Shown one piece after another: positions 13,348-15,399 of a stretch of 64,000 bases of DNA. Position 1 is the stretch's first letter. Every line of letters starts with the position of its first letter. The stretch spans positions 1-64,000 of the forward strand of contig NZ_CP012410.1 of the NCBI RefSeq assembly GCF_001274535.1, written 5' to 3'. Both the position numbers and the translations under genes were made by a program. The notes under the pieces were generated by a model. That model had not been told where the DNA came from and did no database searches. It worked only from the letters and a program-made list of their open reading frames with translations. Origin of the DNA: Leptotrichia sp. oral taxon 212 (GTDB taxonomy: Bacteria; Fusobacteriota; Fusobacteriia; Fusobacteriales; Leptotrichiaceae).

Positions 13348-14211
13348 TTATTCAGCATAGGTATTACATCTGTTAAACCATCCCTGAAGCCATTTTCTTT
13401 CCTTTTTTGAAGGATCTGAGTTATTTACTCTTCGTTGTAGCACAAATTTTGCAGAATTTGAAAATTCAGTCAGTGCAGATTTTCCTGTTTCAGTACCTTT
13501 CATATTTTCCAGTACCTGTAGCAATCCCCATCCTTGTCCGTTATATCTTTCTTTTGGATTAGTTCCTTCACCTTTAAAGTTGACATAGTCAATCAGTGGA
13601 TAAAGACCGTTTGGCGAACTGGCCACCCTGTAAAACTGTTTTCTTACATTTTCCCTGTCATTGGAAACTGCCAGCATTTTTTCAAGGGAGGATTCAAGTC
13701 TTTTAAAAATAAACATAATCTGTAAGTCTTTGTTTTCATATAAGAAATTTGTAAGCTCTTCAATATCGGTATCAGGAATTTTTTTAGTTTTTAAATTAAT
13801 CAATTCCTGTCTGTCTTTCCATGGAGAATATTTATTTTCAGCCATTATTTTTGGTAATTTGACATTTTTAGATTTTAAAAATTCTACCAGCTGAGGAAAG
13901 CTTTCTTCAAATATTCCAGGTTCTCCCTGCTTATACCAGATAAAATGACCTATTCCGAGTGAAGGAAAATTTTCTCCCTCATTCCAGTAAACCAGATTTT
14001 CCTTTTTGCCTGCTGCTTCGTTTTTGAAGATTTTTTCGCCTATTGCATTTAATTCAGATCTGCTTATATTTGCAAAGATATCTTTTTTTTCTGTAGATAC
14101 AGATGTTTGTACAGGTTTTGACTTTTTCTTTGAAGCTGATAAATTTGCTGATAAACTGTTTAAGGAACATGAAACTAATAAAGCTGTTAACAATATTTTT
14201 GATTTTTTCAT
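13348..14211 (-). CDS. secreted lysozyme-like protein
   Basis: A 287-residue exported protein. The N-terminus (residues 1-22) is a signal sequence; LLVSC at 11-15 could be a lipobox, making it a lipoprotein. After a Ser/Lys-rich linker, residues 50-90 contain GEKIFKNEAAG (candidate acid E65) and, 20 residues later, FPSLGIGHFIWY. The spacing of Glu and G-I-G-H recalls phage T4-type lysozymes (GH24). The C-terminal part ends RKWLQGWFNRCNTYAE. I infer a murein hydrolase fold; this is not proven. An AGGAGG site precedes the start. It lies beside an LD-carboxypeptidase gene, which supports a peptidoglycan role. Confidence 0.6.
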   Translation of the reverse strand: MKKSKILLTALLVSCSLNSLSANLSASKKKSKPVQTSVSTEKKDIFANISRSELNAIGEKIFKNEAAGKKENLVYWNEGENFPSLGIGHFIWYKQGEPGIFEESFPQLVEFLKSKNVKLPKIMAENKYSPWKDRQELINLKTKKIPDTDIEELTNFLYENKDLQIMFIFKRLESSLEKMLAVSNDRENVRKQFYRVASSPNGLYPLIDYVNFKGEGTNPKERYNGQGWGLLQVLENMKGTETGKSALTEFSNSAKFVLQRRVNNSDPSKKERKWLQGWFNRCNTYAE

Positions 14212-14371: not shown

Positions 14372-14400
14372 TTGATTTTTAATTAAGTTTGTGTTATAAT
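14372..14400 (+). promoter_or_regulatory. promoter of the antitoxin-like small RNA
   Basis: TTGATT (14372-14377) and a perfect TATAAT (14395-14400) are 17 bases apart. No gene follows. Transcription would start near 14407 and reach a terminator after about 60 bases. Confidence 0.7.
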
Positions 14401-14413
14401 AACTCTAGAAAAA

Positions 14414-14429
14414 TGCGTAGGCAAAGGAC
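14414..14429 (+). repeat. direct repeat copy in the small RNA (DRa/DRb-like)
   Basis: TGCGTAGGCAAAGGAC matches TGTGTAAGCAAAGGAC at 14539-14554 in 14 of 16 positions. A further TAGAA is shared just upstream of both copies. The copies sit in opposite transcripts, which creates complementarity between them. Confidence 0.8.
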
Positions 14430-14433
14430 AAAA

Positions 14434-14460
14434 AAAGAGAGTGGTTGTAGCACTCTCTTT
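14434..14460. terminator. bidirectional terminator of the toxin/antitoxin pair
   Basis: A perfect 10-bp stem (AAAGAGAGTG 14434-14443 with CACTCTCTTT 14451-14460) has a 7-base loop. T-rich runs follow on the + strand (14458-14467) and a T7 run follows on the - strand (14437-14431), so it can end both convergent transcripts. Confidence 0.85.
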
Positions 14461-14465
14461 TCTTT

Positions 14466-14549
14466 TTACAGATATTTGTCTATTAGAATTTTTAGTAACT
14501 CCAATAGCAAAAGTAAAAAGATTTTCATTAGAATCTTTTGTGTAAGCAA
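14466..14549 (-). CDS. candidate type I toxin: 27-residue hydrophobic peptide
   Basis: A TTG start at 14549 lies 8 bases after a perfect AAGGAGGTGA site (14564-14555) and encodes 27 residues: a short polar head (MLTQK), a core of Ile/Leu/Phe (ILMKIFLLLLLELLKILI) and a polar tail DKYL. A GTG at 14558 is in frame but overlaps the ribosome-binding site. The peptide would form one membrane helix, like Fst, TxpA or Ldr type I toxins, though it lacks the Fst-family Pro/Trp signature. The stop is directly followed by the shared terminator. The other open frame on this strand (from ATG 14568) starts upstream of the ribosome-binding site and is probably not used. Confidence 0.6.
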   Translation of the reverse strand: MLTQKILMKIFLLLLLELLKILIDKYL

Positions 14550-14554
14550 AGGAC
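14539..14554 (+). repeat. direct repeat copy at the toxin translation start
   Basis: This is the second copy of the 16-base repeat. Read on the minus strand it covers the gap between the Shine-Dalgarno and the TTG start plus the first codons of the toxin, the site an antisense RNA would need to block. Confidence 0.8.
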
Positions 14555-14581
14555 TCACCTCCTTCCATTAGAGGATAAAAT

Positions 14582-14590
14582 ATTATAACA
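14582..14590 (-). promoter_or_regulatory. extended -10 promoter of the toxin gene
   Basis: On the minus strand TG-T-TATAAT (14590-14582) is a perfect extended -10. The -35 region (TTTATT at about 14610-14605) is weak. The message would start near 14575, giving a leader of about 26 bases before the toxin start. Confidence 0.6.
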
Positions 14591-14712
14591 TAAAATTCTT
14601 TTTAAATAAATATAAATTTAATATAAATATAATTTTTTGGCATAATGGAATTAAAAAAAATAGTAAAATATAACAGAACAATACTGAATACAAAGGAGAA
14701 AAGTGTCTTAAA

Positions 14713-15399
14713 ATGAAAATTAAAAGAAAAATAGAAGAAAAATTCAAAGAAGAGAAGATATTATATGATTTTTTAAGTAGGGATACGGTGTCTCTTGCTA
14801 AAGAACTGCTGGGAAAACTTATTAAAGTGAAATATGGAGAGAGTATACTTTCAGGATATATTGTGGAAACGGAAGCATATCTTGGAAAAGAGGATATGGC
14901 ATGCCATGGCTACAATGGAAATAGGACTCCAAAAGTGGAGGCACTTTATCAGGAAAAAGGAACAGTTTATATTTATACCATGCACACACATAAAATGCTG
15001 AATATTGTTTCAATGGAGGAAGGTAACCCGCATGCAGTGCTTATAAGAGGAATAGAGCCTGCCAAAGGCATGGAAATAATGGAAAAAAATCGTGGCAAGG
15101 AAGGAATTCTCGTTGGAAATGGTCCGGGAAAACTGACAAAGGCAATGGGAATAAATGACAAATTTAATATGACAAAAATAGAGAAAATAAATGACAAAAT
15201 GGGAGAAATCTGTAAAAATATTTTATATATTGATTTTGAAGGAAGCCGTGTTCCGAAAAAAATAGCTTCTTCTGCCAGAATAGGAATTCCGGACAAAGGA
15301 ATATGGACAGGTAAGAAATTACGATTTTATGTCAGCGGGAATAAATATGTTTCCGGAATGAAAAAAGGGGATTTTAATGAAAACTGCTGGACAAAATAG
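14713..15399 (+). CDS. 3-methyladenine DNA glycosylase (Mpg/AAG family)
   Basis: The 228-residue protein follows the AAG/Mpg family pattern. It shows SRDTVSLAKELLGK, the catalytic region SGYIVETEAYLGKEDMACHG, YIYTMHTHKMLNIV, and the C-terminal PGKLTKAMGI and SARIGI segments. It excises alkylated purines such as 3-methyladenine by flipping the base out; the active-site Glu is in VETEAY. The AAAGGAG site lies about 14 bases before the ATG, rather far. It begins downstream of the toxin promoter, facing away from it. A terminator follows. Confidence 0.92.
   Translation: MKIKRKIEEKFKEEKILYDFLSRDTVSLAKELLGKLIKVKYGESILSGYIVETEAYLGKEDMACHGYNGNRTPKVEALYQEKGTVYIYTMHTHKMLNIVSMEEGNPHAVLIRGIEPAKGMEIMEKNRGKEGILVGNGPGKLTKAMGINDKFNMTKIEKINDKMGEICKNILYIDFEGSRVPKKIASSARIGIPDKGIWTGKKLRFYVSGNKYVSGMKKGDFNENCWTK

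Follow-up and report, generated by a model that had tools for sequence, protein, structure and literature searches.

Organization of the locus

A compact locus was found at 14372–14590 of the window (the whole 64,000-nucleotide stretch of DNA analysed), between a minus-strand 287-aa ORF (13348–14211) and a plus-strand 228-aa ORF (14713–15399). It comprised a minus-strand ORF for a 27-aa hydrophobic peptide and a plus-strand small RNA gene, converging on one bidirectional terminator (Table 1). An earlier note, made from the sequence, had described a type I toxin-antitoxin locus here, and its hydrophobic 27-codon frame with a TTG start and GGAGG 8 bases before it, the extended −10 promoter of this frame, the convergent promoter and the 16-base direct repeat (14/16 identical between the arm of the small RNA and the toxin start) were all recovered. 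The perfect hairpin with T-runs on both strands was also present, but its stem was counted as 11 bp instead of the 10 bp given. The two RNAs, put at ~60 and 145 nt, had predicted sizes of ~61 and 146 nt. A longer toxin frame from a GTG at 14558 was also possible; the TTG at 14549 was taken as the start because homologues align with their start there. The toxin mRNA was predicted to begin at 14575 with the leader UCCUCUAAUGGAAGGAGG, which could fold into a hairpin.

Table 1. Features of the locus in the window (positions in bp)
Feature	Position	Strand	Remarks
Antitoxin promoter TTGATT-17-TATAAT	14372–14400	+	10/12 matches; TG ahead of −10
Predicted antitoxin small RNA (RNA II), ~61 nt	14407–14467	+	ends predicted from promoter and terminator
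Direct repeat, antitoxin copy	14414–14429	+	5′ part (arm) of antitoxin RNA
Predicted toxin mRNA (RNA I), ~146 nt	14430–14575	−	ends predicted from promoter and terminator
Bidirectional intrinsic terminator common to both RNAs	14433–14461	both	11-bp perfect stem, 7-nt loop, T-runs on both strands
Toxin ORF MLTQKILMKIFLLLLLELLKILIDKYL, 27 aa	14466–14549	−	TTG start at 14549, stop ends at 14466; matched by the peptide profile
Direct repeat, toxin copy	14539–14554	−	across toxin start codon; predicted antitoxin target
Toxin Shine-Dalgarno GGAGG	14558–14562	−	8 bases 5′ of TTG
5′ hairpin of toxin mRNA	14558–14574	−	CCUCU:GGAGG pairing, predicted Shine-Dalgarno sequestration
Toxin extended −10 promoter TGTTATAAT	14582–14590	−	best −35 hexamer TTTATT, 3/6

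Comparison of the window copy with shuffled sequences

Of 10 promoter-like sites in 1.4 kb the antitoxin promoter was the best one; alone it is weak evidence, since shuffles averaged 6.9 such sites. Two terminator-like sites were found in the 1.4 kb versus 0.5 expected. A pair of 16-mers equal to or better than the direct repeat occurred in 8/200 dinucleotide shuffles of the 239-base locus, so that the repeat taken alone was only moderately unusual and not decisive. The predicted duplex of antitoxin and toxin mRNA outside the terminator (−24.1 kcal/mol) covered mRNA nt 21–47, including the start codon at nt 27–29, and its energy was matched by 0/1000 shuffles of the antisense arm. For comparison, the duplex of one paralogue (own1055k, see below) was matched in 11/1000 shuffles and that of a decayed relative (G032a) in 68/1000. 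Including the terminator hairpin, the toxin mRNA folded better than 200/200 shuffles (z −5.8).

A peptide family in Leptotrichiaceae

When 60 genomes were searched at the nucleotide level, each yielded some match at E ≤ 10, almost always by chance; eight matches reached E ≤ 1.2e-12. Two of the eight were paralogues within the window genome, at 337,467–337,679 and 1,055,184–1,055,364 (own1055k), each with the full layout; the other six lay in one related genus. A second subfamily was found via a covariance model of the mRNA and an iteratively growing peptide profile. With the final profile, 13 of 98 Fusobacteriota genomes yielded matches at E ≤ 4.3e-6, at 27 loci in all; the next match had E 0.02. 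All 27 lay within Leptotrichiaceae, in four genera. Three of the loci were in the window genome, and 10 of the 13 genomes of Leptotrichia (genus g3) carried at least one. Subfamily a consisted of the window locus, its two paralogues and the six Leptotrichia loci (peptides such as MRVKETIKILLLILLEVLRYLIEKFL), and subfamily b of 18 loci (MRTLLIKILVIILLQIVIILIQEFWK and relatives). The core of the terminator stem was identical throughout subfamily a; the stems of subfamily b differed.

Intact frames of 26–27 residues were present in 23/27 loci, and these 23 peptides were hydrophobic (GRAVY 1.00 to 2.02). With the first codons (the repeat region) left out, pooled pN/pS was 0.35 for subfamily a (5 sequences) and 0.32 for subfamily b (9 sequences), and 50% of the nucleotide differences in the toxin frame fell at third codon positions. 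These values indicated that the toxin frame is very likely translated and under purifying selection. Conservation of the peptide frame in relatives, on which the earlier note had staked its reading, was thus borne out (27 loci, pN/pS ~0.33).

Other searches returned little. An Rfam search of the locus gave 12 matches up to E 10, all below the gathering scores, and a search for related loci in genome and viral contigs confirmed none. A terminator-pattern search in genome contigs gave 13 stretches; the contig of L114 (read as L041) held an ordinary terminator. Candidates L039–L041, L128–L138, L174–L176, L220 and L224–L227 were rejected as ordinary terminators, coding DNA or stretches without the layout. 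Stems near AAAGAGAGTG/CACTCTCTTT recurred behind ordinary genes in other Fusobacteriota (L041, L128, L129 and L137), so that the terminator stem alone is a poor search handle.

Antisense pairing and its concerted change

The two RNAs could be delimited in 25/27 loci; L170 and L173 were omitted because the 5′ part of the toxin was missing. From the 25, 14 representatives were kept after near-duplicates were dropped, and all 196 antisense/mRNA combinations were scored with the terminator excluded. The cognate mRNA was the best target for 14/14 antisense arms, in agreement with the earlier note's expectation that the repeat pairing would be conserved in relatives, and the cognate arm was the best for 13/14 mRNAs. 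Mean predicted pairing was −23.0 kcal/mol for cognate versus −9.8 kcal/mol for non-cognate combinations. The observed cognate sum was reached by 0/100,000 permutations, a test that ignores relatedness among the loci. For the three loci of the window genome, cognate energies were −24.1, −21.6 and −19.6 and crosses ranged from −5.9 to −13.2 kcal/mol. The single exception was the own1055k mRNA, which paired at −20.8 with the G024 arm, from another organism, versus −19.6 with its own. The strongest non-cognate pairing (−24.5) joined the G024 arm to the mRNA of G025b, a close relative.

The predicted duplex covered the start codon in 19/25 loci. The six Leptotrichia loci of subfamily a were predicted to pair at the Shine-Dalgarno hairpin (mRNA nt 1–20), not at the start codon; the predicted target is thus shifted between loci while the principle is kept. 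By prediction, the antisense RNA is complementary and specific to its toxin mRNA. Conservation and concerted change in the relatives lift the locus clearly above chance, and this comparative evidence is the decisive one.

One genome (G010) contained two family copies in tandem, 0.26 kb apart (L172:608–1215, minus strand). Their repeats differed (CATACATCATG versus CATATCTTATG), as did other sequence, and each arm followed its own toxin.

Predicted sequestration of the Shine-Dalgarno sequence

GGAGG or a one-base variant was present in most relatives and gone in G030a and G032a. In the window copy the probability that the Shine-Dalgarno sequence is paired was 0.85 in the full mRNA and 0.91 in its first 45 nt, a level that 18/200 shuffled leaders reached. 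In all 23 loci with a near-consensus Shine-Dalgarno sequence the first mRNA bases (UCCUC, UCCUU, CUCC etc.) were predicted to pair with it; the register of the hairpin shifted between loci, and the pairing probability in the full mRNA ranged from 0.54 to 0.99. Shuffled leaders hid the site as well in ≤6/200 cases for 13 of these loci and in 14 to 54/200 for the other 10, the window copy included. In the remaining two loci, G030a and G032a, the Shine-Dalgarno sequence was mutated.

A proposed mechanism and its likeness to pAD1 par

We assign a probability of about 0.9 to the reading that the locus is a type I toxin-antitoxin module, belongs to a new Leptotrichiaceae family and works like the par locus of the Enterococcus faecalis plasmid pAD1, building on the architecture, the family, the concerted change of pairing sites and the selection on the peptide computed here. 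The plus-strand promoter would direct a short antitoxin RNA, and the minus-strand promoter a toxin mRNA whose first bases would hide its own Shine-Dalgarno sequence in a hairpin. Since the two RNAs have one terminator in common, the loops of their 3′ hairpins are complementary and may kiss; the 5′ arm of the antitoxin would then pair across the start codon, blocking translation of the 27-residue membrane peptide. If antitoxin synthesis stopped, on plasmid loss or under stress, the mRNA would be freed and the peptide would damage the membrane.

Excerpts of the Fst/Ldr review PMC7472228 describe par as having convergent promoters, a bidirectional terminator, direct repeats that sequester the initiation site and a 5′ stem-loop that hides the Shine-Dalgarno sequence. 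Judged by its sequence, the window locus resembles pAD1 par, as so described, in its convergent promoters for toxin and antitoxin RNA, in one bidirectional intrinsic terminator common to both, in direct repeats (DRa/DRb) that put the predicted pairing at translation initiation, and in a predicted 5′ stem-loop sequestering the Shine-Dalgarno sequence (equalled by the 18/200 shuffled leaders). The family further resembles pAD1 par and the par-like loci of Firmicutes, as far as the excerpts go, in having plasmid and chromosomal copies with separate specificities.

There were also differences. The predicted window mRNA is ~145 nt, pAD1 RNA I is longer than this, and the host phylum is Fusobacteriota. 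The window terminator loop had no U-turn YUNR, a motif that some relatives have and that is not universal in the par family. No separate upstream helix was predicted in the toxin mRNA; its 5′ end itself would form the Shine-Dalgarno hairpin. Unlike in pAD1 par, the repeat of the Leptotrichia subfamily-a loci lies on this hairpin instead of on the start codon.

In TxpA/RatA and BsrG/SR4 of Bacillus subtilis the toxin and antitoxin RNAs overlap at their 3′ ends, over a longer stretch than in the window locus. The RNAs of the window locus, by contrast, overlap in the terminator and would make their second contact through the repeat at the start codon. The two Bacillus systems are named in excerpts of PMC4147584 and PMC12390103, and the former (its Table 1) gives mRNA decay a large part in them. 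MsoT1/MsoA1 of Microcystis aeruginosa, according to excerpts of PMC12390103, is likewise type I-like outside the classical phyla; its phylum and toxin differ from those described here. Ldr/Rdl of enterobacteria shares with the window locus a short hydrophobic toxin and small-RNA control, and its regulation is described as distinct from that of Fst (excerpts of PMC7472228); the Ldr peptide signature (Trp, charged tail) is absent from the window copy.

Relation of the peptide to Fst

The earlier note had called the locus Fst/par-type while suspecting a new toxin family, the peptide being without the Fst signature. The layout and the presumed mechanism agreed with the first label as far as prediction goes, and the toxin did not. 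Pfam PF13955 (Fst_toxin) matched neither the window peptide nor 14 family peptides at E ≤ 10, and the 14 gave one chance match to Pfam (E 7.2). No PF13955 match above the cut-off was found in 98 genomes, nor in the window genome at E ≤ 1, but this search is weak evidence because 14 control genomes gave none above the cut-off either. Fst/Ldr toxins have a conserved Trp between the membrane helix and a charged C-terminal tail, and both Trp and charged tail were absent from the window peptide. Reading of 23 peptides revealed no P/D/S/TXXXG(C) motif, which Fst/Ldr toxins have in the membrane segment, Pro being present in 1/23 and Gly in 2/23.

Homology of the peptide or locus to the Fst par family would account for the identical layout, Shine-Dalgarno hairpin included (excerpts of PMC7472228). 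It would also fit the 12/14 intact subfamily-b peptides that end in a penultimate Trp followed by one Lys, since the Fst signature also has a Trp near the C terminus, although these peptides have no charged tail; and peptides of 26 residues are too short for homology to be excluded. Against it stand the profile tests just given and a window copy with neither a PXXXG-type motif nor a charged tail nor a tryptophan. No match to the family profile itself reached E ≤ 0.002 among 398 genomes sampled from a Thermoanaerobacter's phylum or among 299 from that of a Halalkalibacter. These two samples overlap, as the listed genomes coincide, and their empty answer, with no positive genome among them, shows little. 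The same profile does match in L. hongkongensis. We consider descent from Fst unlikely: because the PF13955, Trp, PXXXG and charged-tail tests failed, the toxin is set apart from Fst even though the layout would work like par, and by the tests run it appears to be unrelated and to represent a new toxin family.

Promoters and decayed copies

TATAAT was kept in 24/25 toxin promoters and in 23/25 antitoxin promoters. A TTG-starting −35 at 17 bases occurred in 23/25 antitoxin and 5/25 toxin promoters; in total −35 matches of six the two differed little (2–5 for antitoxin versus 2–4 for toxin), and predicted promoter strength says little on whether the product is a toxin or a harmless peptide.

Six of the 27 loci had decayed (L036, L038, L166, L169, L170 and L173), and in all six the toxin side was damaged: by frameshifts in G027 and in the small contig of that genome, loss of the 5′ part of the toxin (G028:C4), loss of the start together with a stop (G010:1722086), deletion of the toxin promoter with a mutated Shine-Dalgarno sequence (G032a) or a mutated Shine-Dalgarno sequence (G030a). 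The antitoxin side had also drifted in G030a and G032a (−10 TATGAT in both, and the −35 spacing off in G030a). No locus was seen that had an intact toxin side with a lost antitoxin −10. The asymmetry fits a toxin, the number of loci being small and the promoters predicted ones.

Plasmid copies

Nucleotide searching revealed copies on six Leptotrichia plasmids, from L. hofstadii, L. trevisanii, L. shahii, L. wadei (two) and Leptotrichia sp. oral taxon 221; the PLSDB gene table, which is incomplete, listed no feature at the match. Among the 40 matches listed for the L. hofstadii replication protein (1794 further), six of seven Leptotrichia plasmids carried the locus. Genes for replication initiation, RelE, RelB, PemK/MazF and ParA surrounded the copy on the L. 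hofstadii plasmid, and that of oral taxon 221 had a RelB/DinJ gene on one side and a replication initiation gene on the other. When the window locus itself served as the nucleotide query against plasmids, a single weak match came back. Tblastn of one peptide against plasmids and phages found none, perhaps through the low-complexity filter, a nucleotide search of phages gave no credible copy, and none of the 23 stretches of viral contigs that fitted the Shine-Dalgarno-hairpin pattern contained the peptide.

On L. hofstadii pJCM16775-1 (L180:4590–7160) the type I locus lies between the type II genes RelBE and PemK/MazF, near rep; this region is possibly a cluster of addiction modules.

Because relatives are plasmid-borne, a role in plasmid stability is plausible for the family, and post-segregational killing would be a reasonable ancestral role; for the window copy, which is chromosomal, it is inferred.

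A toxin or a harmless peptide

A small regulatory or structural membrane peptide under a cis-encoded antisense RNA, harmless at ordinary levels, would look alike in layout and pairing, and in the window genome all three copies have ordinary protein-coding genes on both sides. The small membrane protein Prli42 of NCBIfam matched 3/14 peptides (best E 0.02) and was rejected as a relative, the matches being taken as chance; PHROGs (best E 0.24) and PDB (0) gave nothing counted as a relative either. The predicted sequestration of the Shine-Dalgarno sequence, the other addiction genes adjoining the locus in the two plasmids read, the toxin-side lesions in six of six decayed copies and the antisense arms specific to each paralogue together form the pattern of an addiction module, so that the toxin reading is favoured and a harmless peptide appears very improbable. 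That the locus is an ordinary bidirectional terminator amid noise promoters with a spurious short ORF, as the many promoter-like sites in AT-rich intergenic DNA, the repeats in 8/200 shuffles and the decoy stems elsewhere might suggest, we regard as refuted by 27 homologous loci, a frame under selection and repeats changing in concert.

A second family with both genes on one strand

A laxer model search also matched loci in two other Leptotrichiaceae genera: two in G007, two near-identical ones in G014 and one in G022 (L218:646–998, plus strand; L219:583–933, minus strand; L221:543–980, plus strand; L222; L223). In these one strand encodes the antitoxin and, downstream of it, the toxin; each gene has a promoter and a terminator to itself, and the 23-aa peptides share a C-terminal FPxIxY. 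The small RNA was complementary to the toxin start codon with predicted energies of −20.8, −23.0 and −27.8 kcal/mol, which were reached by 0 to 3/1000 mononucleotide shuffles. The sequence around G007_C36 differed, with weak cross-pairing (−6.0 to −12.2); G007_C2 and G014 had much of the site in common and cross-paired at −16 to −18 kcal/mol.

By eye, the terminator loops of the two RNAs held complementary hexamers, UUGCCG/CGGCAA in G014 and G022, UUGCAG/CUGCAA in G007_C2 and CUGCAA/UUGCAG in G007_C36, whose toxin terminator is a weak hairpin. In a computed comparison that omitted bases paired inside the loop by folding, the central four bases were complementary. Three distinct same-strand loci thus appear to keep the loop complementarity that the window family has through its common terminator, and this lends support, in both families, to a mechanism with two contacts, loop kissing plus pairing at the start codon.

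When the profiles of the window family and the same-strand family were compared, no usable alignment resulted, so that relatedness of the peptides is not demonstrable, and one same-strand (tandem) locus had no match among plasmids. We tentatively suggest, at somewhat less than even odds, that two-site antisense control of membrane toxins arose in Leptotrichiaceae separately from the par loci of Firmicutes. The peptide would be unrelated and the layouts two in number, a convergent one with a common terminator, as in the window locus, and a split one on a single strand, where covariation keeps the loops of two separate terminators complementary. If so, terminator-loop kissing with start-codon pairing would be a general, convergent design and not the relic of one ancestor.

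Significance

According to excerpts of PMC12390103 (2025), Proteobacteria, Firmicutes and Tenericutes were the only phyla with known type I systems until Cyanobacteria joined them, a narrow range put down there to search methods. A literature search on type I toxin-antitoxin systems in Fusobacteriota, Fusobacterium or Leptotrichia found no fusobacterial system described, leaving room for a database entry, and excerpts of PMC4147584 and PMC11005410 name none. In excerpts of PMC10326533 a RelB protein is assigned to a type I complex; the protein antitoxin described there is of the type II kind.

A partly plasmid-borne, covarying family in Fusobacteriota, found by its layout and not by toxin similarity, would widen the range of type I systems, and concerted change of the two repeat copies suggests a search signature that needs no known toxin. 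In addition, the family provides a naturally occurring collection of distinct antisense pairs, with 14 representatives that are not all orthogonal and three in one cell that look insulated from each other. For Leptotrichia, it is a candidate for plasmid maintenance.
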